DNA of 64,000 bases from positions 1 through 64,000 of the forward strand of contig JACRGQ010000021.1 of NCBI GenBank assembly GCA_016217735.1. Direction: 5' to 3'. A program made the position numbers and the translations under genes. The notes under the pieces were generated by a model, which was not told the DNA's origin, did not search any database, and saw nothing but the letters and a program-made list of their open reading frames with translations. Origin of the DNA: Nitrospinota bacterium. GTDB taxonomy: Bacteria > Nitrospinota_A > UBA7883 > JACRGQ01. Below, piece after piece: positions 30,221 through 45,620 of the stretch; the stretch's first letter is position 1; each line of letters opens with the position of its first letter.

Positions 30221-32116
30221 TCAGGGAATTTTGCGGGAGAGGGGGATGACGAAGCGGACGGTGGTGCCCTTTCCCGGTTCGCTTTCGACCTTAATGCCGC
30301 CGCGGTGCGCGATGATGATGTGCTTCACGATGGAAAGCCCCAGCCCGGTGCCGCCGCGTTCGCGCGAGCGGTCGCGGTCGACGCGGAAGAAACGCTCCAT
30401 CAGGCGGGGAATGGCGTGGGCGGGAATGCCCTCGCCGGTGTCGGTGACGAACCATTCCACAAAGCGGCGGCTCCACTCCTCCTCCGTTTCGGGCAGGAGC
30501 GGATTGCCGTCCAGCGAGGGGTAGTCGAAAGCGGCGGCGCTGTGCCGGTCAACCGTGAGCGTGCGGCAGCGGGCGGTCACTTTGCCGCCGGCGGGCGTGT
30601 ACTTGATGGCGTTGTCGAGCAGGTTGACGAAGACCTGCATCAGCCGGTCTTTATCGGCCTCGAACGGCGCGGTTCCGTCTTCCACGGTCCAATCGAGCGT
30701 CACCCCCTGGTTCGCGGCGGCCTGCGCGAACATCTGCGCCGCGTTTTTGATGAGCGGTTCGGCCCGCATCGGGAGGAACTCGAACTTCTCTTTTTCCAGC
30801 TCGATGTTGGAGAGCGCCAGAAGGTCGTCGATCAGGCGGCCGAGCCGCCCGGTCTGCCGCTGGATGATCCCCAGCATGTGGCGCGCGGTCTCCGGCTCGT
30901 CCACCGCGCCGTCAACCATCGTCTCCACATAGCCGCTGATGGCGGTGAGCGGCGTGCGCAGTTCGTGCGACGCGTTCGCCACGAAATCGACGCGCATCTC
31001 TTCCAGCTTTTTCTGCTGGGTGACATCGTAGATCATCAGCAGTGTGCGGGCGCTGCCGGCATCCCGCTCCGCCACGATGCGGACCGGGATGTCCCGTAAC
31101 GCGGGACTTTCGCGTTTCAGCGGCGCGGCGGAGGCCAGCAGATGCCGCGTGGGGGGAACGCCGAGGGCGATCTCCCGCTTGACGGTCTTATGCGTGGAGC
31201 GGTGCAGCGCCAGCAGGTCGAGCAGCGCGGGGTTGCGCACCGTTTCGGCTATCGGCTTCCCGTCGAGAGTCCGTTGCGGCAGGCCGAAGAGCGCTAAAAA
31301 CGCGGCGTTGTGCAGAAGGATATTGCCGTCCGCGTCCAGCAGCAGCACGCCGTCTTCCATGTATTCGATGATGGCGCGCACCCGTTCGCGCTCTTCGCGC
31401 AGCATGGCCGCCGTTTCCGCCGCCTGCCCCGCGACGGCGCCGGCCTTCGCGCCGATGCGGTCGAAATCGTCGCCGAACACGCGGGGCGCATGGGCCGGGG
31501 CGGCATCCCCCGCTCCCGCTTCCAGATAATCCGAAATCGTCCGCACCCGCCGCCGCAGCGACCGCGCCATGAGATAGCTGAGCAGGCCGGCCGCCGCCAG
31601 CGCAATAGCGGTGAAGGCCGTCGCCTTGACGGCGGTTCCGCCCCCGGCCCCCGCCATCCGCTCCGGATCGACCATGAAGTGGAGCGCCCCGGCCGGCGCA
31701 TCGCCCGCGCGGAGCGGATAGGCAATAAAATAGGCGTCTTTCTTGAGGAGATTGCTGAACCGGAATTCCACCGCCTCTTCGCCGCGCAACGCGGCGGCGA
31801 CCTCCGGCAGCGCGGCGAAATCCTGCCGCGCCTCCCCTTCGCTCCGGTAAGTGGCGAATGACTCGCCGCCGGGGCGGACAAAGGCGGCCTCAACCTCCAC
31901 CATCCGCCCCAGCGCCCGCAGCCGGGGAAGCGGGTCGTCCCCCGTCAGCGGCATCTCCGCCTGAAACGACGCGGCCAAGGGGCGGAATATGTTTTGCACC
32001 TCCGCCGCCCGCTGGTTTTGGCGGTCCTTTGAATGGATTGCGGAAAGCGCGATGACGAGTGAAATGACAAGGATGGCGAAGGCCCCGAAAATTTTCCAGC
32101 CGAATCCCCGTATCAC
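30221..32116 (-). CDS. phoR: Phosphate-regulon sensor histidine kinase
   Basis: 631 aa, long for PhoR. An N-terminal membrane segment (FGAFAILVISLVIALS), a periplasmic sensor of about 150 residues, a second membrane segment (ATAFTAIALAAAGLLSYLMA), a HAMP-like linker, a PAS domain (RAIIEYMEDGVLLLDADGNILLHNAAFLALFG), HisKA with His384 (ANASHELRTPLTAISGY) and HATPase_c (NLLDNAIKYTPAGG, DTGEGIP, GLGLSIVKHI). The large periplasmic loop differs from E. coli PhoR, which has none. The start lies 3 bp after the phoB stop; last gene of the pst-pho cluster. Confidence 0.9.
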   Translation of the reverse strand: MIRGFGWKIFGAFAILVISLVIALSAIHSKDRQNQRAAEVQNIFRPLAASFQAEMPLTGDDPLPRLRALGRMVEVEAAFVRPGGESFATYRSEGEARQDFAALPEVAAALRGEEAVEFRFSNLLKKDAYFIAYPLRAGDAPAGALHFMVDPERMAGAGGGTAVKATAFTAIALAAAGLLSYLMARSLRRRVRTISDYLEAGAGDAAPAHAPRVFGDDFDRIGAKAGAVAGQAAETAAMLREERERVRAIIEYMEDGVLLLDADGNILLHNAAFLALFGLPQRTLDGKPIAETVRNPALLDLLALHRSTHKTVKREIALGVPPTRHLLASAAPLKRESPALRDIPVRIVAERDAGSARTLLMIYDVTQQKKLEEMRVDFVANASHELRTPLTAISGYVETMVDGAVDEPETARHMLGIIQRQTGRLGRLIDDLLALSNIELEKEKFEFLPMRAEPLIKNAAQMFAQAAANQGVTLDWTVEDGTAPFEADKDRLMQVFVNLLDNAIKYTPAGGKVTARCRTLTVDRHSAAAFDYPSLDGNPLLPETEEEWSRRFVEWFVTDTGEGIPAHAIPRLMERFFRVDRDRSRERGGTGLGLSIVKHIIIAHRGGIKVESEPGKGTTVRFVIPLSRKIP

Positions 32117-32119
32117 CGG

Positions 32120-32812
32120 CTATGGCTCCACGCCGAAGATATAGCCGAACCCGCGGACGGTCTGGATATAGAAAGGTTTTTTAGGGTCTTTTTCAATAAG
32201 CGCCCGCAGGCGGCGGATATGCACATCAACGGTGCGGGGCTGTACGAAGGCGTCGTCCTTCCAGACGTTGGCAAGCAGGTCTTCGCGCGACCAGGCGCGG
32301 CCGGGGTGCAACGCCAAAAAGCCGAGTATCCTGAACTCATAAGGGCTGAGGTGAACCGGCTTGCCGTTGAGCTTGACGCTGACGGAATCGAAATCGATGG
32401 CGAGTCCCTTGCAGGCGAACAGCTTCGGGCCGGTTTCCGGCGCGGCGGCGCGGCGCAGCACCGCTTTCACGCGGGAGGCCAGCTCTTTCACGCTGAACGG
32501 CTTCATCACATAGTCGTCGGCCCCTATTTCGAGGCCGATGATGCGGTCCGTCTCGGAGGCCTTGGCGGAGACGATGATGACCGGCGCATGTTTCAACCGG
32601 TCGTCCCCTTTCATGCGGCGGAGCACATCCAGCCCCTGCATGCCGGGGAGCATGAGATCGAGCACCACCAATTCCGGCTTGAAGACGCGCGCCTGCGCCA
32701 GCCCCTCCTCGCCGTTGTGGCTGACCGCCAGGTGATGCCCCTCTTTTTCGAGGTTGTAGCGGATGAGGCCGCTGATGTCCCGTTCGTCCTCTATGACCAG
32801 TATGCGCGCCAT
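32120..32812 (-). CDS. phoB: Phosphate-regulon response regulator
   Basis: 230 aa. Receiver with DE pair (IEDERD), phosphoacceptor Asp52 (VVLDLMLPG), SAKAS and KPF; C-terminal OmpR-type winged helix (KPVHLSPYEFRILGFLALHPGRAWSREDLLANVWKD, RTVDVHIRRLRALIEKDPKKPFYIQTVRGFGYIF). It binds Pho boxes such as the one upstream of pstS. Lies 13 bp after phoU and 3 bp before phoR. Confidence 0.93.
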   Translation of the reverse strand: MARILVIEDERDISGLIRYNLEKEGHHLAVSHNGEEGLAQARVFKPELVVLDLMLPGMQGLDVLRRMKGDDRLKHAPVIIVSAKASETDRIIGLEIGADDYVMKPFSVKELASRVKAVLRRAAAPETGPKLFACKGLAIDFDSVSVKLNGKPVHLSPYEFRILGFLALHPGRAWSREDLLANVWKDDAFVQPRTVDVHIRRLRALIEKDPKKPFYIQTVRGFGYIFGVEP

Positions 32813-32825
32813 GCCTCTCCGCGGC

Positions 32826-33509
32826 CTATTTGGCGGGCGGCATGTCCGGCTCGGTGTGCCGGACGATGCGCCCCTCGACCATGTAGATCACCATCTCGGC
32901 GATGTTGGTGGAATGGTCGGCGATCCGCTCGATGTACTTGGCGATGAACATGATGCGGGTGGCGCGGGCGATGGTGTGCGGGTCTTCCATCATGTAGGAC
33001 AGCAGCTCGCGGAAAATCTGGTGCGTCAGCGCGTCCACCTGGTCGTCCTCGGCGCGCACCTGCTGGGCCAGCGCGGTGTTGCTGGTGACGAACGCGTCCA
33101 GCGCGTTTTTCAGCATGGAGGTGCAGCACTCGCCCATGCGGGGAATATCCAGGTACGCCTTCAGGCGCGGCTCGGAGGCCAGCTCCAGCACCCGCTCGGA
33201 GATGTTGACCGCCATGTCGCCCATCCGCTCGAGGTTGTCCACGATCTTGATGGCGGTGGTGACGAAGCGGAGGTCGGCCCCCATCGGCTGGCGGCGGGCC
33301 AACAGGTCGATGCACATTTCATCGATCTCCACTTCGGTCTTGTTCACCAGGTGGTCGCGGCTGATGGTCTGGTTCGCCAACTCGATGTTGTGATCCATCA
33401 ATGCGGCGATGGCGTTGGAAACCTGCTCTTCGACGATGCCGCCGAGCCGGAGCACGCTCTCCTTGAGCGTCTGCAGTTCCTTGTCGAAGTGTCTGTCGTA
33501 GTGTGGCAT
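32826..33509 (-). CDS. phoU: Phosphate transport accessory/regulatory protein PhoU
   Basis: 227 aa. Two three-helix bundles with the duplicated metal motif: EVEIDEMCIDLLARRQPMGADLRFVTTAIKIVDNLERMGDMAVNI and a second TRIMFIAKYIERIADHSTNIAEMVIYMVEG. It links Pst transport to PhoR signalling. Lies 19 bp after pstB. Confidence 0.95.
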   Translation of the reverse strand: MPHYDRHFDKELQTLKESVLRLGGIVEEQVSNAIAALMDHNIELANQTISRDHLVNKTEVEIDEMCIDLLARRQPMGADLRFVTTAIKIVDNLERMGDMAVNISERVLELASEPRLKAYLDIPRMGECCTSMLKNALDAFVTSNTALAQQVRAEDDQVDALTHQIFRELLSYMMEDPHTIARATRIMFIAKYIERIADHSTNIAEMVIYMVEGRIVRHTEPDMPPAK

Positions 33510-33528
33510 TGTTGAACTTTCCTTTATC

Positions 33529-34323
33529 TCAGCCGAATTTGCCGGTAATGTAGTCTTCCGTGTCTTTCACGGAAGGTTTCTGGAATATCCTGCCCGTCAC
33601 GTCCATCTCAAGCAGCTTTCCCATGTAGAAAAAGGCGGTGTAATCCGAACAGCGGGCCGCCTGCTGCAGGTTATGGGTCACGATCACGATGGTGTAATGC
33701 TCCTTCAGCACCTGTATGGTCTCCTCAATCTTCGCCGTGGAGATCGGGTCGAGCGCGCTGGCCGGTTCGTCCATCAGGATTATTTCGGGGTCGTTGGCCA
33801 GCGTGCGGGCGATGCAGAGGCGCTGCTGCTGGCCGCCCGACAGGTCGAGCGCCGATTTTCCCAGCCGGTCCTTCACTTCTTTCCAGAGGTCGGCCTGCTT
33901 GAGCGAGCGCTCCACGATTCCGGCAAGCGTTGCCTTGTCCTTCATGCCGCGCATCCGGGGGCCGAAAGCGACGTTGTCGAAAATCGTCATCGGGAACGGA
34001 TTGCTCCTTTGGAACACCATGCCGACGCGCTTCCGCAGGGCCTCCAGCCGGACTCCTTCCCTGTAGATGTCCGAACCGTTGATGAGGATGTCCCCCTCCA
34101 TGCGGGTGTTGAGGATCACGTCGTTCATCCGGTTGAGGCAGCGCAGCAGCGTGCTCTTGCCGCAGCCGGACGGGCCGATGAAGGCGGTCACCTTCTGGCG
34201 GCGGATGTCCATGCTGATGTCATACAGCGCCTGCTGGGACTGGTTGTAATAAAAGCTCAGCTTGCGCACATGCACGGCGACATCGCCGGCGGCATCAACC
34301 GGCGCGGTTATCGGTATATCCAT
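33529..34323 (-). CDS. pstB: Phosphate ABC transporter ATP-binding protein
   Basis: 264 aa. Walker [20 protein letters not shown], the PstB-specific [23 protein letters not shown], signature [16 protein letters not shown], Walker [14 protein letters not shown] and [26 protein letters not shown] 222-bp gap holding two repeat elements separates it from pstA, so it may have an extra promoter or processing site. Confidence 0.96.
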
Positions 34324-34383
34324 ATGTCCCTATTATCCACGATTCCCGATGTTAAATGAAGAAAACGGCGTGCTGGCGGCTTT

Positions 34384-34461
34384 GTCATGCTGAGCCAACG
34401 GCGAAGCATCTCTTTCCCTTCTTTTTTCCGGAAAGGGATTCTTCACTACGCTCAGAATGAC
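34384..34461. repeat. GTCAT...ATGAC palindromic repeat (family A)
   Basis: Ends GTCATGCTGAGC / CTCAGAATGAC are imperfect inverted copies; core has TTCCGGAAAGGGATTCTTC. Same family as 50,000-50,065 and 53,293-53,358. Confidence 0.85.
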
Positions 34462-34481
34462 AAAACCCGCGCCAATTCCGT

Positions 34482-34518
34482 CGGCCCCGCGGGCCGATGA
34501 CACACAGGAATGTGTGTC
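34482..34518. repeat. Two-hairpin element with GGAA loop
   Basis: Hairpin 1 CGGCCC-CGC-GGGCCG (34,482-34,496), hairpin 2 GACACACA-GGAA-TGTGTGTC (34,499-34,518). Stem sequence differs from other copies but architecture and loop are kept. Lies between pstA and pstB. Confidence 0.75.
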
Positions 34519-34545
34519 TTACCGCCCCGCAGCATCGCCGCCGGT

Positions 34546-36201
34546 TCACAGCGCGGCCCCCTTGTAGGTCTTCCGCAGCCGGTTCCGCAGCACTATCGCC
34601 ATGAGGTTCAGCGCCACCACGATGACGAGCAGCAGGCCGGTGGTTGTATACACCATCGGCTTGGCCGCTTCCACGTTGGGGCTTTGGAAACCGACATCGT
34701 AAATGTGGAAGCCGAGGTGCATGAACTTGCGGTCGAGGTGCAAAAAAGGCCAGCCGGCGTCCACCGGCAACTCGGCCACCAGCTTCACCACGCCGGTAAT
34801 CATCAGCGGGGCCACCTCGCCGGTGGCGCGGCTGATGGCCAGAATAACGCCGGTGAGTATCCCCGGCATCGAGTTCGGCAGCACCACGTTCCACAGCATC
34901 TGCCATTTGGTGCTGCCCAGCGCCAACGCCCCCTCGCGGTTGGCGCGCGGCACCGCGGCCAGCCCCTCCAGCGTGGCGACCACCACCACCGGCACCGTCA
35001 ACAGCGCCAGCGTGAGGGATGCCCAGAGAATGCCGCCGGTGCCATACGTCGGCTCCGGCAGCTTATCGGCGAAGAAAACCCGGTCGATGCCGCCGCCGAC
35101 GAAGTAGATGAAGAAACCGAGGCCGAAAATGCCGAAGACGATGGAGGGAACTCCCGCCAGGTTGTTCACCCCCAGCCGGACGAGATTCAGGAACGGCCCC
35201 GGCTTTGCATATTCGTTCATATACAGGGCCGCCATCACGCCGAACGGCGCGCCGGCCAGCACCATGATAAACACCATCATCACGGTGCCGAATATGGCGG
35301 GGAACACGCCCCCCTCGGTGTTCGATTCGCGCGGCCAGGTCCAGAGAAAATCCCACACCTTGCCGGCGTAATGCCCCGCCTTGGCGAACAAACCCATCCG
35401 GTTCGGCAGGTAAAAGGCGCGCACATCCTTGAGCGGCAGTTTCTTCACCTGTCCGCCGGCAAGCATCACCTCAATCGCGCCGGCATCCTGCTCCGTCCGC
35501 AACGCCGCCAGCCGCTGTTCGGGAACGGTGATCGCATCCCCCAGCTTCAGCGTCAGCGCGTCATATTCCTTGTTGAGCCTTTCCAGTTTCAGTTCCGCCT
35601 CGGGGGTGCCGGCTTCGGGGCCGTCCTCCAGAAGGCGGATGTCCACTTCCAGCTTTGCCAGCGGCTGGCGGGCGTGCTCCACCTCCCCGGCGGCTTTTTT
35701 TATTTCCCCCTTAAGCTCCGCGGCGCGAGCGATCTTTTTCTCCAGCAGGGGATAAAAATCCAGCCCGGCGCGCACGATGGCCGTATCCCCCTCCCGCAGC
35801 GCTTGTATAAAACCGTGCAGATCGCCGTATTCGTTCCGTTCCAGCACGGCGGCGTCTTCGGGATACCCGCGCTTCTCGACGGCGGCATCGTCCACCCAGC
35901 GGAAATCGAGGCCGTACACATCGCGGTTGCCGATCTTGAGGAGCGAACGGGTGGCGGCGCCGGTTCCGGCGGCATGGAAAACGGTCTCGGTCTCCATCAC
36001 CGGCCCCATCAGGCTGGAGCCGCCTTTCAGCGAAACCTGCGCCATCGGGGCGGGCCAGAAGTGCGTGGCCCCCTTGGCGAAAATAAGCCCCAGGAAACCG
36101 GTAACAATCACCAGCAGCGCCAGCACGGCCATGCCGCTGATCCAGATGAACGGCACCCCTTCGGCCCAGAATCCGCGATGGTATTCGTTCCGCTCTTCCA
36201 T
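34546..36201 (-). CDS. pstA: Phosphate ABC transporter permease PstA, long form
   Basis: 551 aa, against about 300 for the classic protein. An N-terminal membrane segment (WISGMAVLALLVIVTGFLGLIF) is followed by an approximately 250-residue periplasmic insertion with a long coiled coil (KIARAAELKGEIKKAAGEVEHARQ), then the usual six-helix permease with EYAKPGPFLNLVRLGVNNLAGVPSIVFGIFGLGFF and the EAA loop (EGLAAVPRANREGALALGSTKWQM). Long PstA/PstC forms are known in Gammaproteobacteria such as Pseudomonas. Its start overlaps the pstC stop by 1 bp. Confidence 0.92.
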   Translation of the reverse strand: MEERNEYHRGFWAEGVPFIWISGMAVLALLVIVTGFLGLIFAKGATHFWPAPMAQVSLKGGSSLMGPVMETETVFHAAGTGAATRSLLKIGNRDVYGLDFRWVDDAAVEKRGYPEDAAVLERNEYGDLHGFIQALREGDTAIVRAGLDFYPLLEKKIARAAELKGEIKKAAGEVEHARQPLAKLEVDIRLLEDGPEAGTPEAELKLERLNKEYDALTLKLGDAITVPEQRLAALRTEQDAGAIEVMLAGGQVKKLPLKDVRAFYLPNRMGLFAKAGHYAGKVWDFLWTWPRESNTEGGVFPAIFGTVMMVFIMVLAGAPFGVMAALYMNEYAKPGPFLNLVRLGVNNLAGVPSIVFGIFGLGFFIYFVGGGIDRVFFADKLPEPTYGTGGILWASLTLALLTVPVVVVATLEGLAAVPRANREGALALGSTKWQMLWNVVLPNSMPGILTGVILAISRATGEVAPLMITGVVKLVAELPVDAGWPFLHLDRKFMHLGFHIYDVGFQSPNVEAAKPMVYTTTGLLLVIVVALNLMAIVLRNRLRKTYKGAAL

Positions 36202-38525
36202 TAGAACCTCGAATATTTCCGCCGCAGCCGGTTGCTGATCAACCCGGCCAGCGTGTTAATGGCGAAGGTGAAGACAAACAGAATGAAGCCGACGAGAAAA
36301 AGGATGCGGTACAGGCTCCCCCCCACCGGCGCTTCGGGCATTTCCACCGCGATGGCGGCCGACATCGCCCGCATGCCGTTGAAAATGCTCCAATCCATGA
36401 TCGGCGTGTTGCCGGTGGCCATCAGCACGATCATCGTTTCCCCCACCGCGCGGCCAAGCCCCAGCATGATGGCGGCGAAGATGCCGGGGCTGGCGGCGGG
36501 GAGCACCACATGGATGGCGGTCTGCCAGCGCGAGGCGGCCAGCGCGAACGAAGCCGACGTGAGCGACGGCGGCACAGCCGTGAGCGCGTCCTCGGAAATG
36601 GTGAAGATGATCGGTATCACGGCAAAACCGAGCGCGAAGCCGACCACCACGCAGTTGCGCGGATCGTATGCCAGCGTGAACGCATGATAGAGCCAGCTTT
36701 TAATGTCGCCGCCGAAAACGCCGGACTCCACGGCGGGGGCCAGCGCGATGCCGAGCGCGATCCCCGCGGCAAGCACCGGCAGAAGGCAGAGCAGTTCATA
36801 GCGCCCGCTGATGTCCGGCCGCTTGTGCCACGGCACGGCCCACATGGCCGCCACAAAAGCGAACCATGCCGCCGGCAGCGAGAACAGCACCATGAAAAAT
36901 GCCATCAGGTGACGATCCATCAACGGCGAAAGCCACAGCCCCGCCAGAAAGCCGACCACCACCGAAGGAATCGCCGCCATCAGTTCGATGACCGGCTTTA
37001 CGATATTGCGCAGGCCCGCCGGGGCGAGCTGCGACAGGTAGAGCGCCCCCAGCAGCGCGATCGGCACCGAAAAGACCATCGCATAGAGCGTTCCTTTCAG
37101 CGTGCCGAAGATAAGGGGCCAGATCGAAAACTTGGGTTCAAAATCGTCGGTGCCGCCGGTGGATTGCCACACGTGCGCGGGACCGGGGTACCCTTCGTAC
37201 CACACCTTGCTGAACAGGGTATTGAACGTGACATCCGGATGATGCGCCCGCAACGCATAGTCGTACAGCACGCCATCCCCTTGCAGCGCGATAATGCCGT
37301 CGGATTTCGGCGTGAAGGCCGCCAAAGGCTTGCCGTTTTGCAACGCCGCCACGGGATAGCTTTTCCCGGTGGTGGAGTAGTGGTACGTCAGGCCATTGGC
37401 CGCGGCGGTGACAAACCCCTTGTCGCGCGGCGAGGGGGCGATGGCCGCCACCGCCGCGCCGTGCGGGGCGAACCCGCGCACCTTCAGGTATCGCATCCCC
37501 ACGGGGGCAAAGGAGACATCCGGATTGGCGCCGCGCTGGCCGGCGTAATTGCGGTCGATGATTTCCCGTTCTTCGCCGGGCTTAAGAATGACGCCGTGCG
37601 CGCGATCCAGCGCCACCTTCTCCGCGCCGCCGTTTTTGGCGATGATGTGGCGCACGGGGAACCACTCGGATACATCCCCTTTTTCATCGCCGATAACCAG
37701 CGCTTCGTCCCCGTTCAAAAAGCCGAGCGCGGTAATGGCGGCGGCGGAAGCCTTGAAATTTTCGGCGTTGCGCGGCTGCCCGTTTTCAATGTCGAAGACG
37801 TAGACCATGCCGTCGGCCGCGCCGGCGATAAGCTGCCGTCCGGTGGTCCTCATGGCGAGGGCCGTGATCCGCGCCCCCCCCGCGTCGGCGGGCGCGATGT
37901 TGGAATCGCCGTTTTCGCCCACGGACAGCAGAACCAGCGCGCCGTCGTCTTTCACGGCGGCGATGCCGATGCCGCCGTTTTCGTCCACCGCGCCCGCGGC
38001 AAGGCGCACCGGACGCCGCGCGGGATCGATTTGGTAAAGCTGTTCGCCGTTGCGCACGCTGTGGGTGACGGCCCGCGCCGCGCCGCTGAAATCGGCGGCA
38101 TAGCGCACTTCGGTCGTTCCCGCCTTGCCGTCGGCGGTGCCGAAGGCAATCCAGTTGCGTTTGAGCGCGCGGCTGGCGGCGGTAATTTTGTTTCCGGCCA
38201 GCGCGGGGTTCGGAATGCTTTTCAGCGCTTCGCCCGTCTTGAGGGAAAGAAAATCGACCGCGCCGGTCTCGTTCAGCCGGAATGCGGTCTCGCGGTATTC
38301 ATCGGCGCCGACGGCCATGCCCGCCGCGGGGGAAAGGCGCTGGCTGGCCGCCCATTGGGAGGAAACCTCCGCCTCGGGGGCATAAAACAGGGGCAGCATC
38401 TCGAAAAAAATGAAAAGCATGATCGCCGCGACCGAAAGAATGACCGTCATCCCGCCCGCCGTTATCAGATAACGGGCGATGCGGTCTTTCAGCAGAACCG
38501 TTTTTTCGTGCTTATCCGGACTCAT
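36201..38525 (-). CDS. pstC: Phosphate ABC transporter permease PstC, long form with propeller-like insert
   Basis: 774 aa. A first membrane segment (ARYLITAGGMTVILSVAAIMLFIFF) leads into about 400 periplasmic residues with WD-like repeats (MVYVFDIENGQPRNAENF, ALVIGDEKGDVSEWFPV, NGLTYHYSTTGKSYPVAAL) suggesting a beta-propeller. The permease part follows: LIFGTLKGTLYAMVFSVPIALLGALYLSQLAP, LMAAIPSVVVGFLAGLWL, and an EAA-type loop (ALTAVPPSLTSASFALAASRWQTAIHVVLP). It overlaps pstA by 1 bp; a strong hairpin separates it from pstS. Confidence 0.92.
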   Translation of the reverse strand: MSPDKHEKTVLLKDRIARYLITAGGMTVILSVAAIMLFIFFEMLPLFYAPEAEVSSQWAASQRLSPAAGMAVGADEYRETAFRLNETGAVDFLSLKTGEALKSIPNPALAGNKITAASRALKRNWIAFGTADGKAGTTEVRYAADFSGAARAVTHSVRNGEQLYQIDPARRPVRLAAGAVDENGGIGIAAVKDDGALVLLSVGENGDSNIAPADAGGARITALAMRTTGRQLIAGAADGMVYVFDIENGQPRNAENFKASAAAITALGFLNGDEALVIGDEKGDVSEWFPVRHIIAKNGGAEKVALDRAHGVILKPGEEREIIDRNYAGQRGANPDVSFAPVGMRYLKVRGFAPHGAAVAAIAPSPRDKGFVTAAANGLTYHYSTTGKSYPVAALQNGKPLAAFTPKSDGIIALQGDGVLYDYALRAHHPDVTFNTLFSKVWYEGYPGPAHVWQSTGGTDDFEPKFSIWPLIFGTLKGTLYAMVFSVPIALLGALYLSQLAPAGLRNIVKPVIELMAAIPSVVVGFLAGLWLSPLMDRHLMAFFMVLFSLPAAWFAFVAAMWAVPWHKRPDISGRYELLCLLPVLAAGIALGIALAPAVESGVFGGDIKSWLYHAFTLAYDPRNCVVVGFALGFAVIPIIFTISEDALTAVPPSLTSASFALAASRWQTAIHVVLPAASPGIFAAIMLGLGRAVGETMIVLMATGNTPIMDWSIFNGMRAMSAAIAVEMPEAPVGGSLYRILFLVGFILFVFTFAINTLAGLISNRLRRKYSRF

Positions 38526-38571
38526 GCCACCCCTTTTTCAACCACGCTTATACCTCAGACCGCAAAACAAC

Positions 38572-38606
38572 ACAACGCCGGCGGCCTCGCGGCCCCGGCG
38601 TTGTGC
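38572..38606 (-). terminator. Attenuator-like hairpin between pstS and pstC
   Basis: CACAACGCCGG pairs with CCGGCGTTGTG (11 bp) and an inner GGCC-TCGC-GGCC extends the stem; on the minus strand it is followed by TTGTTTTG. It probably reduces read-through so pstS mRNA exceeds the permease mRNA. Confidence 0.75.
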
Positions 38607-38620
38607 GCGGCTGTTCTTAC

Positions 38621-39607
38621 TTACTTAAGCTGCTTGAGCATCTCCTGCGCCATTTCGTACGGCAGCGGCAGGAAGCCGTCTTTTATCACTATCTCCTGCC
38701 CTTCCCTGCTAAACACAAAGCGGAGGAACTCCTTCGCCACCGGGTCAAGCCCCTTCTTGGGGTCTTTCGCCACATAGACGTTGAGGTAGCGGGCCAGCGG
38801 GTATTTGCCGCTGTAGACGTTATCGGCCGAGGTGTCATACACCGGATCGCCGTCCTTCACCGCCAGCGGCACAGCGCGCACGCCGGAGGTCACATAGCCG
38901 ATGCCGCTGTAGCCGATGGCGAAGCGGTCTTCGCTCACCCCTTGCACCACCGAGGCGGAGCCGGGCTGTTCTTTCACGGAATCCTTGAAATCGCCTTTAT
39001 CAAGCGCATGCTCCTTGAAGTAGCCGTAGGTGCCGGACGCGCTGTTGCGGCCGAACATCACGATAGGCTTGCCGGCATATTGGCCGGCGAGACCGATCTG
39101 GCCCCACGAGGTGATATCGGCCGCCGCGCCCCGCTTGCGGGACTTGCCGAAAATGGCGTCCACCTGCATCAGGGTGAGGCTCTTGACCGGGTTATCCTTG
39201 TTCACGAATAACGCCAGACCGTCCACCGCCACTTTAAAACCGGTCGGCTTGAACCCGCGCTTGGCTTCAAAATCGTCCGTCTCCTTCGATTTCATGTCGC
39301 GGCTCATCGGCCCAAGCTGGGCCACCCCTTCGGTGAGGGCGGGCGGCGCGGTGCTGGAACCTTTGCCTTCGATCTGGATATTCACATCCATGTATTGCTT
39401 TTTAAAACCTTCCGCCCAAAAGGTCATCAGGTTGTTCAGCGTGTCGGAACCGACGGAGTTCAGGTTTCCCTTGATCCCCTTCGCCTTGTGATAGGCCGTA
39501 TAGCGGCTGTCCACCTTCACCGGTTCGGCATGCGCCGCCGGAGCCGTCAATACGATACCACCAGCGACGGCGACCGCCATCGCGACACCTTTCAGAATCC
39601 GTTTCAT
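38621..39607 (-). CDS. pstS: Periplasmic phosphate-binding protein
   Basis: 328 aa. Signal peptide MKRILKGVAMAVAVAGGIVLTAPAAHA. Phosphate-site motifs include NSVGSDTLNNLMTFWAEGF, GKGSSTAPPALTEGVAQLGPMSRDMK and FGRNSASGTYGYFKEHAL. It delivers phosphate to PstCA. First gene of the pst-pho cluster, preceded by a Pho box. Confidence 0.95.
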   Translation of the reverse strand: MKRILKGVAMAVAVAGGIVLTAPAAHAEPVKVDSRYTAYHKAKGIKGNLNSVGSDTLNNLMTFWAEGFKKQYMDVNIQIEGKGSSTAPPALTEGVAQLGPMSRDMKSKETDDFEAKRGFKPTGFKVAVDGLALFVNKDNPVKSLTLMQVDAIFGKSRKRGAAADITSWGQIGLAGQYAGKPIVMFGRNSASGTYGYFKEHALDKGDFKDSVKEQPGSASVVQGVSEDRFAIGYSGIGYVTSGVRAVPLAVKDGDPVYDTSADNVYSGKYPLARYLNVYVAKDPKKGLDPVAKEFLRFVFSREGQEIVIKDGFLPLPYEMAQEMLKQLK

Positions 39608-39942
39608 TCAGGCTTCCTCCATAAGGTTTTTGGCCGGGGGTCATTCCCCACGCTCTTCCGTCCCGCGGTGCGGTTCGGCATGGCGCCAACTCTACCGGAG
39701 CGCGATTACACCCTTGTTAACGAAATATTAAGATTCCGTTAAGATGCATCGGCCATAACGCTTTATTATCCAACAAGTAATAATGACGCCTATGCCGCCA
39801 ATCGGCCCAACGAGCCGGAAAGCGGGAGTGGGAAAAACTTGCCGGTTTGACGCGGGGGATAAGGCAAAGTAGTCTATCAAGTGAAAAGAAGCGCCGCCCG
39901 ATACGTTTATGTAACAGCGGAATTTATTAAGAAGGTAACCAA
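39608..39942. other. 335-bp intergenic region with pst promoter
   Basis: Holds the Pho box and a TGTAAT -10-like box for pstS on the minus strand; the remainder, upstream of the plus-strand gene at 39,943, is AT-rich around 39,760-39,785 with no other clear signal. Confidence 0.6.
39713..39745 (-). promoter_or_regulatory. Pho box upstream of pstS
   Basis: Three consecutive 11-bp direct repeats on the minus strand: ATCTTAACGGA, ATCTTAATATT, TCGTTAACAAG, each with a TTAA core. A TGTAAT -10-like box follows 2-3 bp downstream. The 11-bp periodicity matches PhoB sites. Confidence 0.75.
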
Positions 39943-40380
39943 ATGAAAATAGATGGTATCAATCCCACGGGCAAACCGGGCCAGGAACCGAAAAAAACCG
40001 ATAAAGTATCGGGCGAGGCGTTCGACTCATTTCTGAAAAGCGCCATGGGAACGGGCCAGGCCGCGCAGGCCAAACCGGTAACCGGCCCCGCGCCGGTGAT
40101 GCACCCGCAGTTGGTGATGGGGCAGACCCAGAACCCCTTCCAGACCGAAGCGGTGCGCCAGCTCGACGCCGCGCTGGGCGATCTGGAACTCTACCGCAAT
40201 ACGCTGGGGAACCCCGACGTGCCGGCAAAGCAACTGGCCCCGATGGCCGACATGCTGATGCAGAAGAAGGATGCGCTGGTGGCGCTGATGGGCAAGACCG
40301 ACGACCCGAAGTTGAAAGAGCTCATCTCGCAGACCGCCGCGGTCATCCTGAACGAAAACTCCCGCCTCTATTCCAACTAA
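39943..40380 (+). CDS. Conserved-looking hypothetical protein
   Basis: 145 aa, no signal peptide or membrane segment. The N-terminus MKIDGINPTGKPGQEPKK...FDSFLKSAM is disordered with a short helix, reminiscent of N-termini of small flagellar-assembly proteins, but no homologue is recognised. The C-terminal half is helical (TEAVRQLDAALGDLELYRNTLG, AKQLAPMADMLMQKKDALVALM). AAGAAGGT lies 6 bp before the ATG. Flanked by the pst regulon and the DGR remnant; role unknown. Confidence 0.65.
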   Translation: MKIDGINPTGKPGQEPKKTDKVSGEAFDSFLKSAMGTGQAAQAKPVTGPAPVMHPQLVMGQTQNPFQTEAVRQLDAALGDLELYRNTLGNPDVPAKQLAPMADMLMQKKDALVALMGKTDDPKLKELISQTAAVILNENSRLYSN

Positions 40381-40389
40381 ACCCACTTT

Positions 40390-40497
40390 CCTCCCCTTTT
40401 CAAGGGGAGGTGCAGGAGGGGTTGAGGTATCTTTCACCAAGCCTGATTTATCAGGACAACGGCTATTACTTTAACCCCGCATCAATCCTCCCCTTTT
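40390..40497. repeat. Composite inverted repeat with CCTCCCC ends
   Basis: Left part CCTCCCCTT-TTC-AAGGGGAGG then GTGCAGGAGGGGTT; right part AACCCCGCATCAATCCTCCCC is an approximate inverted copy. The last approximately nine codons of the truncated RT gene lie in the right part. A related piece is at 43,776-43,810. Confidence 0.75.
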
Positions 40498-41316
40498 AAA
40501 GCGAAGGCTCGGGATGGCGTTCGGTTTCAGACGCAACCGCAACCCATGCAGTTCAGGCTCTATCTCGCGGCACGCTTTCCAGAGCATGTCCTTTGATTCG
40601 CCGAAAAGCGCCATATCATCCATGTAGCGGATGTACCCGCTCCCCGGAAAACGGGACTTGATGAAATGGTCAATAACGCTCAAATAAATGTTGGCGAAAA
40701 GCTGACTGGCCAGATTTCCGATTGGAATCCCCCTGCGCCTCTCAAAAGGAGTAAAGAGCGTATCGCCTGGAAAGTGAAAACCAGCCTCGTCCTGGGCGTT
40801 TGAAGTGTCTATGATAAGGTCGATAAGCCAGAGGGTTTTGGGGCATTTTATTTTTCGCCGTATTGCGGCCTTCAGCAATGCGTGGTCTATCGAGGGGAAA
40901 TACTTCCTCATATCCAGTTTCAGAACATATGGATATTTCCGCGCATATTCGGTAAAGCGCGCAACGGCGCGGTGTGTGCCCTTGCCCTTCCGGCAGGCAT
41001 AACTGTCAAAAATGTGCGTCCTGTCGAAAATTGGCTCTATCACCGCGCACAGTGCATGTTGCGCCACCCGGTCGCGGAACGGGGCGGCGCTGATTGTGCG
41101 CGGCTTCGGCTCATAGATGGTGAACTCGAAATACGGCCCCGGACGGTACTGCATGGATTCGAGATCGTGTTTCAGGCGCAACAACTCGTTTTCAAGGTTG
41201 TATTCAAACCGCGCAACCGGGTTGGCGAACCTCTTTCCGCGCCGCGCCCGGCGGCTGGCCTCCAGCAAGGAACGGAAGGAAACAATTTCCTCAAAGAGAT
41301 TGCCGTGCCGTTTCAT
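40471..41316 (-). pseudogene. DGR-type reverse transcriptase, C-terminally truncated
   Basis: 281 aa. The DGR RT lineage is clear from [95 protein letters not shown], the DGR-specific [16 protein letters not shown] and the catalytic YMDD. After [13 protein letters not shown] the protein ends abruptly in FKRGGLMRG, encoded by a palindromic repeat, so the thumb domain (typically some 80-120 residues) is missing. It lies with an avd gene and a lectin-fold target. Probably non-functional. Confidence 0.85.
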
Positions 41317-41340
41317 TCTATTTTCATTCCCTAAAGATTT

Positions 41341-41452
41341 ATCCGCAGATTACACAGATGTACGCAGATTTAATTGCAGCCCCTCCGCGCTCCTCCCACA
41401 CCCATTACGAAAGTATCTTCCCAATCAGCGACAATCAGCGTAATCTGCGGAT
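41341..41452. repeat. 112-bp inverted-repeat element in the RT-avd gap
   Basis: Perfect terminal arms ATCCGCAGATTAC (41,341-41,353) and GTAATCTGCGGAT (41,440-41,452), with weaker pairing further in. It fills the 141-bp gap where a DGR template repeat is usually found. Confidence 0.8.
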
Positions 41453-41457
41453 AGATA

Positions 41458-41883
41458 CTACTGTTTCCCCGTTTTCTTCAGCCAGCCGCCGATGTACACT
41501 CCGATGCCGTTGATGGCCTCCGCCGCGTACTCGTATCGCCTGAAATCCAAAAGCTTAGGGAGCGGCGGAAGAGTATTGCCGCAATGGAGCGAAGCGGAAT
41601 CAGCGGCGTGCAAACCGCCGCGGAAACCCGCTGTAGCGGGGAGGTCTTTGCACAACCGCACCATATAGCGAAGCTTTTCAAGTTCGATATTGGCGGTCTT
41701 AAGAATTTCCCGCTTCTCCTTGCTGAATCGTGCCTCAATAAGTTGACCGCAGACATCCAGAAGGCAGTTCTGCATCCGGTCACCAAGAATGAACCGATAA
41801 TCGCGGGGGAATTTCCCGATATGCGGAAACAACCAGAGCATGAGGTCATAGGTTTTGGTTAGCGCGTCTTCCTTCTCGCCCAT
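41458..41883 (-). CDS. avd: DGR accessory variability determinant (bAvd-like) with in-frame insertion
   Basis: 141 aa. The four-helix bundle of bAvd is recognisable: KTYDLMLWLFPHIGKFPRDYRFILGDRMQNCLLDVCGQLIEA, KREILKTANIELEKLRYMVRLCKDL, and RRYEYAAEAINGIGVYIGGWLK. Between CKDL and KLLDFRRYE lie about 28 extra residues (82-109) rich in Ala, Gly, Cys and Pro, encoded at 41,557-41,640 by a sequence that resembles the palindromic element near 42,060. Without it the length (113) would be normal. Avd normally forms a pentamer that binds the RT; this insertion falls before the last helix and may break it. Confidence 0.78.
   Translation of the reverse strand: MGEKEDALTKTYDLMLWLFPHIGKFPRDYRFILGDRMQNCLLDVCGQLIEARFSKEKREILKTANIELEKLRYMVRLCKDLPATAGFRGGLHAADSASLHCGNTLPPLPKLLDFRRYEYAAEAINGIGVYIGGWLKKTGKQ
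41557..41640. repeat. Palindromic insertion inside avd
   Basis: Contains ATCAGCGGCGT, a CCGCCGCGGAAA block and the hairpin CCCGCT-GT-AGCGGG; the intergenic copy at about 42,060-42,106 shares ATCAGCGGCGT ... CCGCGGCGGAAAT and a CCCC...GGGG hairpin. Length is a multiple of three, keeping the frame. Confidence 0.65.
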
Positions 41884-42140
41884 AACATCCCCAAAAAAAA
41901 CCGCTGTCGGCCCGGGAACGCGGGCTTCCAGCCCGCAAAGGAGCGGGCAAGATGCCCGCGCTCCCAGGAAAAAAATCCGAGGCCCTTACGGGCCGGTAGA
42001 ATAAACTAAAACGTAAGGAGCCGCGGAACAACAAAAGCCGCATGCCATGCAAAGCATGGCATCAGCGGCGTACTCTCCGCGGCGGAAATCCCCTTCAAGG
42101 GGAAAAGGGTAAAAGGGTAAGGGTGCAAAGTGTAAGGAGA
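41884..42140. repeat. Hairpin-rich intergenic region between DGR target and avd
   Basis: No gene. Holds CGGGCTTCCAGCCCG- and GAGCGGGC/GCCCGCGCTC-type hairpins (41,915-41,970), the perfect ATGCCATGC-AAA-GCATGGCAT hairpin (about 42,042-42,062) and the ATCAGCGGCGT element. At 42,013-42,032 GTAAGGAG and GGAACAAC recur, as they do at 42,132-42,157 around the end of the variable region; a template-repeat remnant is possible but weakly supported. Confidence 0.55.
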
Positions 42141-42262
42141 TTAGTACTGGGAACAACGGAACCCGATATAGTTGTACCGAATGACGGGGTCGTAGTTGAA
42201 CCGGAGGGCGGCGCGGAGATAAAACGCACTAGCGAACCACGAACCGCCGCGAAGAACGCGGT
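42141..42262 (-). other. DGR variable region (VR)
   Basis: C-terminal codons from RVLRGGSW to IGFRCSQY. The hypervariable positions (codons 42,236 down to 42,168) read F-A-S-A-F-Y, L, F-N-Y, V-I, Y-N-Y where DGR templates usually encode Asn. Fourteen of these 15 codons end in C or T, as expected if they derive from AAY codons by adenine mutagenesis. Invariant LRAA, R, DP and IGFR residues separate them. Confidence 0.75.
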
Positions 42263-43472
42263 ACTTCTTGCTGTCATCGTACCAACTATCCGTCCACTCC
42301 CACACGTTACCGCTCATGTCATACAACCCCAAGCCATTAGGCTTCTTCCCCCCCACAGGGTACGTCTTATTACCGGAGTTTTTATCGTACCAGGCATAGT
42401 CGCCCAGTTCACTTTCATTGCTCGTCCCGGCATATACGTTCTTCCCACCTTCGCTCGCCGCGTATTCCCACTCCTTCTCCGTCGGCAGACGTTTCCCAAC
42501 ATTCTGGCAATAGGCTACCGCTTCATCCCAATTCACCAGTTCCACCGGGCAAGTCGGACATCCTTTAAAATTCGAGGGGTTGCTTCCTATAACCCGCTCG
42601 TACGCCTCCTGCGTTACCTCCGTCTTGTCCATATAAAAACCGCCATCCCCCTGTTTCACGAAGACCATTCCGGGATGCTTCGTCTCTTCTTCAGCGGTCG
42701 CCTTCTCTGCGGCCACCTTGTCCGCAGCCGCTTTCTCAGCAGCAATCTGCGCAGGGGTTTTCTCCATCCGCCGCTTCGCCAATGGTGCAAATGTCCCTTT
42801 AGGATAGGATTCCAGATATGCGGCGAAATCAGCCGCATTTGTACTGTCCTTAATGCTGTTCCAGAAGGCAATCTCCGCATCATTGCCGCCCGCCCCCTTG
42901 GCCGCTTGCGTAGCCGCCGCTTCCACGGCAGGCTGGGCGGCCCCGCCGCCCGCAAGCGTCTGGAGCAATCCCATCACTTTAAACTCATTGCATCCTTCAC
43001 AGGGTTTCTGCTCGGCAAATACGGACTTTTCCTCTATGACGTCATTAATGGTAAGGGAAATTGAATACCCGCCGCCGGTCTTCCGTATATTAGCGATTGC
43101 CACAAACGGATAGCCCTCTTTCGTCTGGAACGCCAGCGCCACATCCTGAAGGCACTTTGTCTCGTCGCACTCTTTGCCCGCCTTCGCTTCGGCGCTACGC
43201 TTCTTGTAGACATCATTCACCTTTTCCAAAACCTTCTGGCCGGAGTAGACCACATACTTCTCGGAAAGGCTTTTAACCAGCGCCGCCTCATACTGCGTCA
43301 TCTCATCCTGCGGAATGTCCTTCGTCGGCCTCAGCGGCATTAGCACCACCGCATCCTTCATTTCCTTTTTCACTTCCTTTGCCGCCGCCTTTTTCTCCGC
43401 CGCGTAAGAAGAAAGTGTCAACAGCGGCAGCAAAAGCACAATCAGCGCGAACACACGCCAAACGCTCTTCAT
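42141..43472 (-). CDS. DGR target: secreted FGE-sulfatase/C-type-lectin-fold protein
   Basis: 443 aa from MKSVWRVFALIV (43,472; GGAGA 5 bp upstream). A signal peptide ending SSYAA is followed by a TolB-N/FlgO-like domain (DAVVLMPLRPTKDIPQDEMTQYEAALVKSLSEKYVVY) and a Lys/Ala-rich helical spacer (AEKAAADKVAAEKATAEEET). The C-terminal approximately 170 residues form the formylglycine-generating-enzyme-like CLec fold: KTEVTQEAYERVIGSNPSNF, PVELVNWDEAVAYC, KRLPTEKEWEYAA, NGLGLYDMSGNVWEWTDSW. It ends in RVLRGGSW...IGFRCSQY, the standard position of a variable region. It is the presumed ligand-binding or attachment protein diversified by the adjacent RT. Confidence 0.85.
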   Translation of the reverse strand: MKSVWRVFALIVLLLPLLTLSSYAAEKKAAAKEVKKEMKDAVVLMPLRPTKDIPQDEMTQYEAALVKSLSEKYVVYSGQKVLEKVNDVYKKRSAEAKAGKECDETKCLQDVALAFQTKEGYPFVAIANIRKTGGGYSISLTINDVIEEKSVFAEQKPCEGCNEFKVMGLLQTLAGGGAAQPAVEAAATQAAKGAGGNDAEIAFWNSIKDSTNAADFAAYLESYPKGTFAPLAKRRMEKTPAQIAAEKAAADKVAAEKATAEEETKHPGMVFVKQGDGGFYMDKTEVTQEAYERVIGSNPSNFKGCPTCPVELVNWDEAVAYCQNVGKRLPTEKEWEYAASEGGKNVYAGTSNESELGDYAWYDKNSGNKTYPVGGKKPNGLGLYDMSGNVWEWTDSWYDDSKKYRVLRGGSWFASAFYLRAALRFNYDPVIRYNYIGFRCSQY

Positions 43473-43841
43473 CTTTTCTCCATAATTATTTCGTAACATA
43501 TTACAGGATGGGTTGCACCGGTGTCCAATAGATGCGGGATATTTTCGAAAGACCAGCGGCACGAACCACTGCCGGGTGCGACAGCGGCCTACAGGCCATC
43601 TCCGGCGCGGATAGTAAGAGCAATTCCGCGCCTCCCATCTTGTCGCACGTTGGCGCAACGCGCCAAACAGGGTCGGCCCTCATCACGGGCGCGTATTCCC
43701 ATGCCCTTGGCGGAGTCTCTTAGAGGACTCCGCCGGGAAAGAACAAGAGCAGGGGGCAAGCCCCCTGCTCCCCGAACCCCACCTCAATCCTCCCCTCACA
43801 TGAGGGGAGGAAAGAAATCCGGGTTCAGGGAAACTGTTTTT
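43473..43841. other. 369-bp intergenic region with serial hairpins
   Basis: No convincing gene. It contains TTGGCGC-AAC-GCGCCAA (near 43,655), GGCGGAGTC/GACTCCGCC (43,709-43,734), GAGCAGGGGG-CAAG-CCCCCTGCTC (43,747-43,770), and CCTCCCCTCA-CA-TGAGGGGAGG (43,789-43,810). The last two lie downstream of pckA's stop on the minus strand and upstream of the DGR target promoter side; one may act as terminator, but no T-run is adjacent. Confidence 0.65.
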
Positions 43842-45620
43842 TTATAGCGGGCACTTCAGGGCGGCGCGGAGCGCGCCGATGACCTTTTCGTCGATGCTGT
43901 TCTTTTCCATGTGGTCGATGCGCCACTTCAGCCGTGCGTGGAACAGCGCCTGGTGGCTTCCCCGGTGTTCCTTCGCCAGGACGAACTTTTTATCGTAGCC
44001 GGGATAGAACTCCTCCATGCTCCCCGGCGCGGGTATCTTGGCTCCCGGCAGCATATCCCAATCCACCCACTTGATTTTGTTCGCGGCGATCAGCGGGTAG
44101 AGGATGATGGAAAGCTCTTTCGGGATGTCGGTCTCTTCTTTGCGCGCCTCCGCCTCATCGTTGATGAAAAAGCCGCCGGTGTTGAGCAGCAGCCCCTTGA
44201 TCTTGTGCTTGTTCACGCACTGGAGGAACACCGCGCATTCCTTGCTGTGCGGCCAGATGCCGAAGGGATTCGCGCCCGGCGAGATTTTCAGCTTGCCCAG
44301 TTCGGCCAGCGAGATGTTCTCGGCGGCGGTGCTTTTGGTGGAGAGGGTGATGTAAAGCGCCGCCTGCAGGTACGGGTCCTCGATCAGCGTCAGCGGCCCG
44401 AAGGTGTTGTCCTTCTGGATGGTGCAGATGTACGACGGGGCGGGGGTATCCAGCCGCAGCGGGTCGGCCCCCGGCAGGTGGTGGCGGTTGCTGATGCAGC
44501 GGCCGTTCTTTGTGTACACATCCATGTAGTACGGGATGCGCTCGCCATGCTGATTCACGATGACGAGGGCGTTCTCGGCGCTTTGCACCGTCTTTTCCCA
44601 AAAGCTGCCCGGCTTGTATTCGTCGGTCTTGTTGTAAAGCGAGCTTTCAAGGCCGCTGGTCTCGTTCGCGTCCATCTGCACCACGATGGCGTCGTCGTTC
44701 CCCAGTTCGGTATCCTTCAGCCACCCTTTTTCTATGAACTCCTTATGATAGGCGTTGCCGAGCGACGACTTGCCGGAGCCGGAAAGGCCGATGGTGACGA
44801 ACGACACTTTTTTGCCGTCCGGCAGGACGAGGCTCTTGCTGCTGCCGTGTATCGGCATGCCGATACCCTTGCTGAGGAACGCGCTCCAGATGAGGGAGAG
44901 CGCCCCCTTCTTGCATTCGCCGAAGTAGTAGTTCCCCAAAAGGAAAGCGACGTTGTTCTCGGCGTCGAAGATCATCTTGATGCGGGGCGGCTCGGGGTCG
45001 CGCTTGACCTGCTCCCTGTCGTGCGGATTCACCCGGTTTTTCCACGACAGCCAATCGGGGTTCACCCAGTCGGGATGCGAGATGACCCTGATGTTCTTGA
45101 ATCCGAGCGGCTTGCTTTCGCGATACACGCGGCGCGCCTCGTCGCTCGCCGGCACGAAGTTCAGGACGAAATCGAGCGCGTGCTTGGCATACTTCGACGG
45201 CACGAGAAAATCGCATTCCCCCATCGCGTTTTTGCTCCGGCCGAAGTAGCAGCGCACCGCCAGCATGTCAATGGGGAGCATCTCGCGCACCACGTTCTTT
45301 ATCAAACGGGTGATCGACTCCATCTCGTCGGCGTTGCGCTTGTCCATCACGATGCGGGCCCAGGGCGAGCGGCCGGTATCCTGCCCGGTGATGCTGACGA
45401 GTATCTTGTTGTTGGTCGGAAAAAGCCCGACCCCTTCCACGTCGGACATCAACGCATCGGTCACCACGGTATTCGGCTGCTGGCAGGCCAATTCGTAGGC
45501 GATGTTGATGCCGCCATGCCGGGTGTGCGGCGAACTGAAAAGCTGTATGGCGGCGGCCTCGAGGACGCTGCCGACGTTGATAAGTCCCTGTTCGTCGATC
45601 TTCGTGGAAATGGTGCTCAT
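43842..45620 (-). CDS. pckA: Divergent ATP-type phosphoenolpyruvate carboxykinase
   Basis: 592 aa, longer than the usual approximately 530-540. PEPCK motifs: GNYYFGECKKGALSLIWSAFLSKG (oxaloacetate/metal site), the P-loop TIGLSGSGKSSLGN, a kinase-2-like NDDAIVVQMDANETSGLESSLYNKT, and NTGGFFINDEAEARKEETDIPKELSIILYPLIAANKIKW. It interconverts oxaloacetate and PEP. The residues around the P-loop deviate from E. coli PckA (GLSGTGKTT), placing it in the divergent group; the reaction is inferred. AAGGAG precedes the ATG by about 12 bp. Confidence 0.82.
   Translation of the reverse strand: MSTISTKIDEQGLINVGSVLEAAAIQLFSSPHTRHGGINIAYELACQQPNTVVTDALMSDVEGVGLFPTNNKILVSITGQDTGRSPWARIVMDKRNADEMESITRLIKNVVREMLPIDMLAVRCYFGRSKNAMGECDFLVPSKYAKHALDFVLNFVPASDEARRVYRESKPLGFKNIRVISHPDWVNPDWLSWKNRVNPHDREQVKRDPEPPRIKMIFDAENNVAFLLGNYYFGECKKGALSLIWSAFLSKGIGMPIHGSSKSLVLPDGKKVSFVTIGLSGSGKSSLGNAYHKEFIEKGWLKDTELGNDDAIVVQMDANETSGLESSLYNKTDEYKPGSFWEKTVQSAENALVIVNQHGERIPYYMDVYTKNGRCISNRHHLPGADPLRLDTPAPSYICTIQKDNTFGPLTLIEDPYLQAALYITLSTKSTAAENISLAELGKLKISPGANPFGIWPHSKECAVFLQCVNKHKIKGLLLNTGGFFINDEAEARKEETDIPKELSIILYPLIAANKIKWVDWDMLPGAKIPAPGSMEEFYPGYDKKFVLAKEHRGSHQALFHARLKWRIDHMEKNSIDEKVIGALRAALKCPL

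Follow-up and report, generated by a model that had tools for sequence, protein, structure and literature searches.

A probable remnant of a decayed Avd-type diversity-generating retroelement and its orphan targets in a Nitrospinota genome

Described retroelements and their degraded forms

The closest described counterparts of the locus reported here are the cyanobacterial diversity-generating retroelements (DGRs) of the Avd type with FGE/CLec targets, which have been surveyed (PMC7517822). For instance, plasmid pn2 of Nostoc sp. UHCC 0926 (L120) carries such a DGR, in which the FGE target or targets, avd and the reverse transcriptase (RT) follow the same order as in our locus, and its RT, 56% identical to ours, is the nearest to it in the tree. 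The Nostoc RT is full length and its avd has no insert, whereas our RT is truncated and our assembly holds no template repeat (TR). The DGR of Bordetella phage BPP-1 (mtd-avd-TR-brt) has a homologous RT and the same order of target, avd and RT, but it differs in having its TR between avd and RT, a full-length RT, and a phage tail protein as its target.

Degraded forms have also been reported. Isolates of Treponema denticola contain DGR remnants in which targets lack the RT and TR core machinery (PMC4891356); sister isolates hold intact DGRs, whereas we found no intact version of our DGR in 24 genomes of the phylum. A degraded cassette has been described in Anabaena sp. 90, and the same survey reports a paralogue with remnant TR-VR homology and no proximal RT (PMC7517822). 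In Thiohalocapsa PB-PSB1, arrays of MITE-like repeats stand in place of the RT or TR at some DGR loci, and activity in trans as well as strain variants with intact parts have been documented (PMC10907252). These replacements resemble the repeat-like sequences at the end of our RT and within our avd, but several Thiohalocapsa loci still undergo diversification within the population. Decayed DGRs and orphan targets are already known, and the present locus is a further example.

We analysed a 64,000-nucleotide stretch (hereafter, the window) of a 77-kb contig from a Nitrospinota bacterium, whose genome is a 76-contig assembly of about 95% completeness. The initial annotation had read the cassette as a DGR; its DGR origin and its footprint are upheld, but a complete working element is not supported, as avd is broken by an insert and neither the RT end nor a TR is present, all of which that reading had overlooked. 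The cassette is probably the remnant of a decayed Avd-type DGR that left orphan diversified targets. According to this proposal, an intact RT, Avd and TR would once have produced adenine-mutagenised cDNA, which would have overwritten the 3′ end of the gene for a secreted FGE/CLec-fold protein and the corresponding ends of homologous genes. Subsequently, the template and the 3′ portion of the RT would have been lost, repeat-like sequence would have entered avd, and the target would persist in a form that was diversified earlier and is now frozen. If so, the locus would plainly show a DGR in the course of decay, in which the diversified target genes outlive the machine.

Layout of the cassette

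The target, avd and RT genes lie on the minus strand in this order of transcription, which is the usual one in DGRs (Table 1). The arrangement of RT, bAvd-like gene and FGE/CLec-fold protein had been proposed in the initial annotation, and profile matches to RVT_1, bAvd/DivGenRetAVD and FGE-sulfatase bear it out.

Table 1. Features of the cassette and its surroundings, in window coordinates.
Feature	Position	Strand	Basis or remark
Target (variable protein) gene, 443 aa	42141..43472	-	ORF; FGE-sulfatase 8.8e-42; TvpA 2y3c is the best PDB relative
FGE-sulfatase / C-type-lectin-fold domain, target residues 278-440	42153..42641	-	Profile match; without the cysteine pair of catalytic FGEs
Variable region (VR), target residues 404-442	42147..42263	-	In-frame alignment with relatives' VR/TR; codon-position reversal among homologues
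avd (accessory variability determinant), 141 aa, with in-frame interruption	41458..41883	-	NF033474 over cut-off; phrog_3206, Avd protein of DGR
84-nt in-frame insert within avd, dispersed-repeat-like	41557..41640		Between profile positions 77 and 78
DGR-type RT, 281 aa, 3′-truncated	40471..41316	-	IPIGNLASQ and YMDD kept; C-terminal ~90-115 residues of relatives missing
End of the RT frame without homology, lying in repeat-like sequence	40471..40521	-	Site of the lost RT end, presumably of the lost TR too
22-nt repeat AACCCCGCATCAATCCTCCCCT, copy 1, at the truncated RT end	40473..40494	+	
22-nt repeat AACCCCGCATCAATCCTCCCCT, copy 2, same orientation, past the 5′ end of the target	43775..43796	+	

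A truncated reverse transcriptase of the DGR clade

The RT matches Pfam RVT_1 (2.6e-19) and the PHROG reverse transcriptase family (5e-99), and among solved structures the RT of 8ub7 is its best relative (4.8e-47). Relatives were taken from whole genomes, genome contigs, IMG/VR, and phage and plasmid records, and were scanned for TR/VR pairs, that is, near-repeats with mismatches falling on A in one copy. Such pairs were found in L048, L049, L050, L052, L053, L055, L056 and L057, as well as in L114-L118, L028 and L029; the scan found none in L051 and L054, so its sensitivity is imperfect. In the tree, our RT forms a group with the Nostoc plasmid RT and those of L048 and L049 (support 83/89), and the wider group, which includes the BPP-1 RT, is split from the group II intron RTs at 100/100. 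The RT thus belongs to the DGR clade: a placement outside it, which the initial annotation had named as the outcome that would speak against its proposal, is not what the tree gives, since the RT falls among those of DGRs, many of which have demonstrable TR/VR pairs, and apart from group II. Its end branch is long (0.69 vs 0.25-0.36 in its sisters). A group II intron RT or maturase was also considered and rejected, given a score of 114 bits against an NCBI cut-off of 300 and a position outside the group II clade.

The RT is not full length. Its homology stops at residue 256-278 of 281, and the RTs of relatives run 86-116 residues beyond its last homologous position. No further RT sequence was found downstream of the truncation as far as window position 38001, the search for a lost end in another frame included, and the assembled genome contains no second RT at E<=10. 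We infer that the truncation ended the activity of the DGR. Counting against a relic, the RT and avd frames are still open and free of internal stops; therefore, the decay is recent or not total.

Short-read assemblies may break or collapse at TR/VR repeats. This, together with the fact that the sequence closing the RT frame recurs past the opposite end of the cassette (Table 1), might suggest that the truncation and the missing TR are artefacts of assembly and that the organism has an intact DGR at this locus. We regard this as very improbable, as the truncation sits in the middle of the contig, with an intact ORF (39943-40380) after it, and no other contig carries the lost RT end or the TR.

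An interrupted avd gene

The Avd assignment rests on matches to Pfam bAvd (1.8e-15) and to NCBIfam DivGenRetAVD (NF033474; 96.6 bits, where 80 is required), a cut-off that no other avd within the family exceeds. The accessory protein is therefore represented, though with an insert of 28 residues: it aligns to profile positions 4-77 and 78-104, and exactly 84 nt separate the two parts. The insert is missing from six relatives, and similar sequence occurs at 11 further sites in the genome.

Loss of the template repeat

A TR, identical to the VR apart from its adenines, was found neither in the window nor in the assembled genome, which is about 95% complete; the space between avd and RT, the avd insert and the rest of the window were all searched. 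The TR of L048, L049, L052, L053 and L055 is located where the RT frame ends or immediately after it, and that of L050 some 400 bp beyond. The lost TR of our cassette presumably sat beside the RT end as well, but its former place stays an inference because in L056 and L057 the TR is upstream of the RT. If our cassette once had its TR after the RT in this way, a single deletion took the RT end together with the TR. A TR or a second RT could also be absent from the data because of the 76 contigs and 95% completeness of the assembly. In IMG/VR we found no TR or VR matching ours, and two contigs there with an all-AAY pattern hold their own, more distant DGR.

A probable binding fold rather than an enzyme

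The C-terminal part of the target is an FGE-sulfatase domain (Pfam, 8.8e-42), and its best solved relative is TvpA (2y3c, 4.8e-37), a DGR variable protein of T. denticola. By inspection only, the N-terminus bears a putative Sec signal peptide, which is followed by an N-terminal domain of unknown function. The cysteine pair in the LCHDSYC motif of FGE is catalytic. In the alignment, our target has FASAFY at the place of the LCHDSYC of bacterial FGE, for which reason its sequence is probably that of a binding fold and not of an enzyme; a catalytic formylglycine-generating enzyme was rejected because the C-terminal cysteine pair is missing. The target is probably a periplasmic or surface protein that would bind a ligand.

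The footprint of adenine mutagenesis

As in a former DGR target, the VR lies at the C-terminus of the CLec-fold domain, in frame with the VR/TR of relatives. Twelve variable codons, chosen without reference to the codons of the window, are AAY in the templates of relatives. The initial annotation had counted 14 of 15 variable codons as NNY and had taken this as the footprint of adenine mutagenesis. On recount, all 15 marked codons are NNY, including the 12 defined by templates, but the number alone does not carry the argument: at the same columns of FGE paralogues without VR-type variation, NNY reaches 37/48, 45/60 and 22/24 (75-92%), so NNY codons by themselves are weak evidence, and we discarded their count as proof of DGR action.

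What does carry it is the comparison of codon positions among eight homologous genes, namely the target in the window, a second one in the same genome (contig C46), two in G001, three in G010, and one in G007. At the 12 AAY-derived codons, identity at bases 1, 2 and 3 is 0.32, 0.28 and 0.90, whereas domain codons upstream in the same genes give 0.76, 0.74 and 0.50. This reversal was matched by 0 of 100,000 resamplings, and between the window and C46 alone the values are 0.17, 0.25 and 1.00. A conserved third base beside scrambled first and second bases is the footprint of adenine mutagenesis, and we attribute it to A being replaced in the first two positions of AAY codons, as selection on amino acids would not keep silent third bases while altering the two before them. 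Thus, the footprint claimed in the initial annotation stands, on grounds other than the NNY count. The lack of an A-to-N pattern against any template was the other outcome that the initial annotation had named against its proposal; with no template in the assembly, the pattern was sought among the homologues, and this template-free comparison shows it.

The frequency of NNY in control paralogues could be taken to mean that no DGR ever acted here, and that an ordinary FGE domain came under amino-acid selection at hypervariable positions, with NNY as a mere preference for certain residues. We give this almost no credence. Such selection would not keep base 3 while scrambling bases 1 and 2, and the sites compared behave in the opposite way: upstream columns of low amino-acid identity in the same eight homologues give 0.50, 0.46 and 0.41, and two control FGE families keep the usual order of codon positions (0.79, 0.92 and 0.44; 0.68, 0.72 and 0.50).

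The reversed divergence of codon positions among homologues shows that no template is needed to recognise adenine mutagenesis. Diversified targets of this kind would be missed by surveys that need an RT or a TR, and a codon-position test would let them be counted.

Orphan targets in the same and related genomes

The C46 gene (L002, 443-1693) is a second target-like gene with the same C-terminal pattern and without avd or RT nearby; by inspection, PIN-domain-like and antitoxin-like ORFs adjoin it. Among 24 genomes of the phylum, an RT of the window type (E<=1e-25) was found only in the window's own genome, and none was found in G001, G010 or G007, which hold the footprint-bearing homologues. 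A weaker, different DGR occurs in the same family (G004 C8; L056, 4267-5507), with a TR/VR pair whose mismatches fall on A only; its RT is cut by the contig end and has a TGA in the matched frame.

The three targets of G010 (L059, L069 and L103, on C71, C72 and C12) are three different FGE genes. At VR framework codons for the same amino acid, their third bases agree at 16/18, 17/19 and 17/17 sites, compared with 62/102, 24/50 and 21/46 in the upstream parts, and C72 and C12 share 28 of 29 third bases in their last codons while the rest of the genes are far apart. Since agreement at silent sites is far higher in the frameworks than in the upstream parts, one template overwrote these three genes, which also speaks against the view that no DGR acted. 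No RT or TR was found in the G010 assembly.

The same does not hold for the window and C46, whose third bases agree at 14/19 sites in the VR framework and 66/104 in the rest of the gene (p=0.28), a result that does not support recent writing of both VRs from one template. With frameworks that resemble each other no more closely than other parts of the two genes do, their last common template is old or the templates were separate. C46, G001 C40 and G007 C245 have frameworks that are common across genera (p=0.004-0.054, uncorrected, 11 pairs tested).

These comparisons bear on whether the target in the window might still undergo diversification in trans, with the TR and RT located on a plasmid or phage that was not binned, in an assembly gap, or in other strains of the population. 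The G010 genes, overwritten by one template in an assembly where neither RT nor TR was found, would fit this idea, as would the incompleteness of our assembly and the trans activity and intact-part strain variants documented in Thiohalocapsa (PMC10907252). Nevertheless, we hold it to be unlikely, since 95% of the genome has yielded no TR and no second RT, IMG/VR has no matching VR or TR, and the window and C46 lack the shared framework seen in G010. Loss of the machine, with the target left frozen, remains our preferred explanation. A bolder and still less likely extension is that a mobile TR and RT, unstable in the chromosome, visits genomes of the family and rewrites resident FGE/CLec targets in trans. 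If true, it would explain the template-like frameworks common within G010 and between C46, G001 C40 and G007 C245, as well as the almost constant absence of RT and TR from these genomes.

Surroundings of the cassette

In G002, by inspection, the PEPCK-like gene that flanks the cassette in the window directly adjoins a phoR-phoB-phoU-pstB-pstA block, without a DGR. In the window (region 30227-43842), the pho/pst block beside the PEPCK-like gene is inverted relative to G002, and at the boundary lie the remnant of the DGR and a small ORF (39943-40380). Given this inversion and the lack of a DGR in G002, the cassette is at a rearrangement boundary.

Hairpins occur after some VRs. About 80 bp past the VR stop, the window has a perfect 9-bp palindrome with an AAA loop (42042-42062), which could recall them but is probably a dispersed repeat, as its sequence recurs elsewhere in the genome (L016). 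In the gap between avd and RT (41337-41456) there are two inverted copies (79%) of ATCCGCAGATTAC-type sequence, which is unrelated to the VR.
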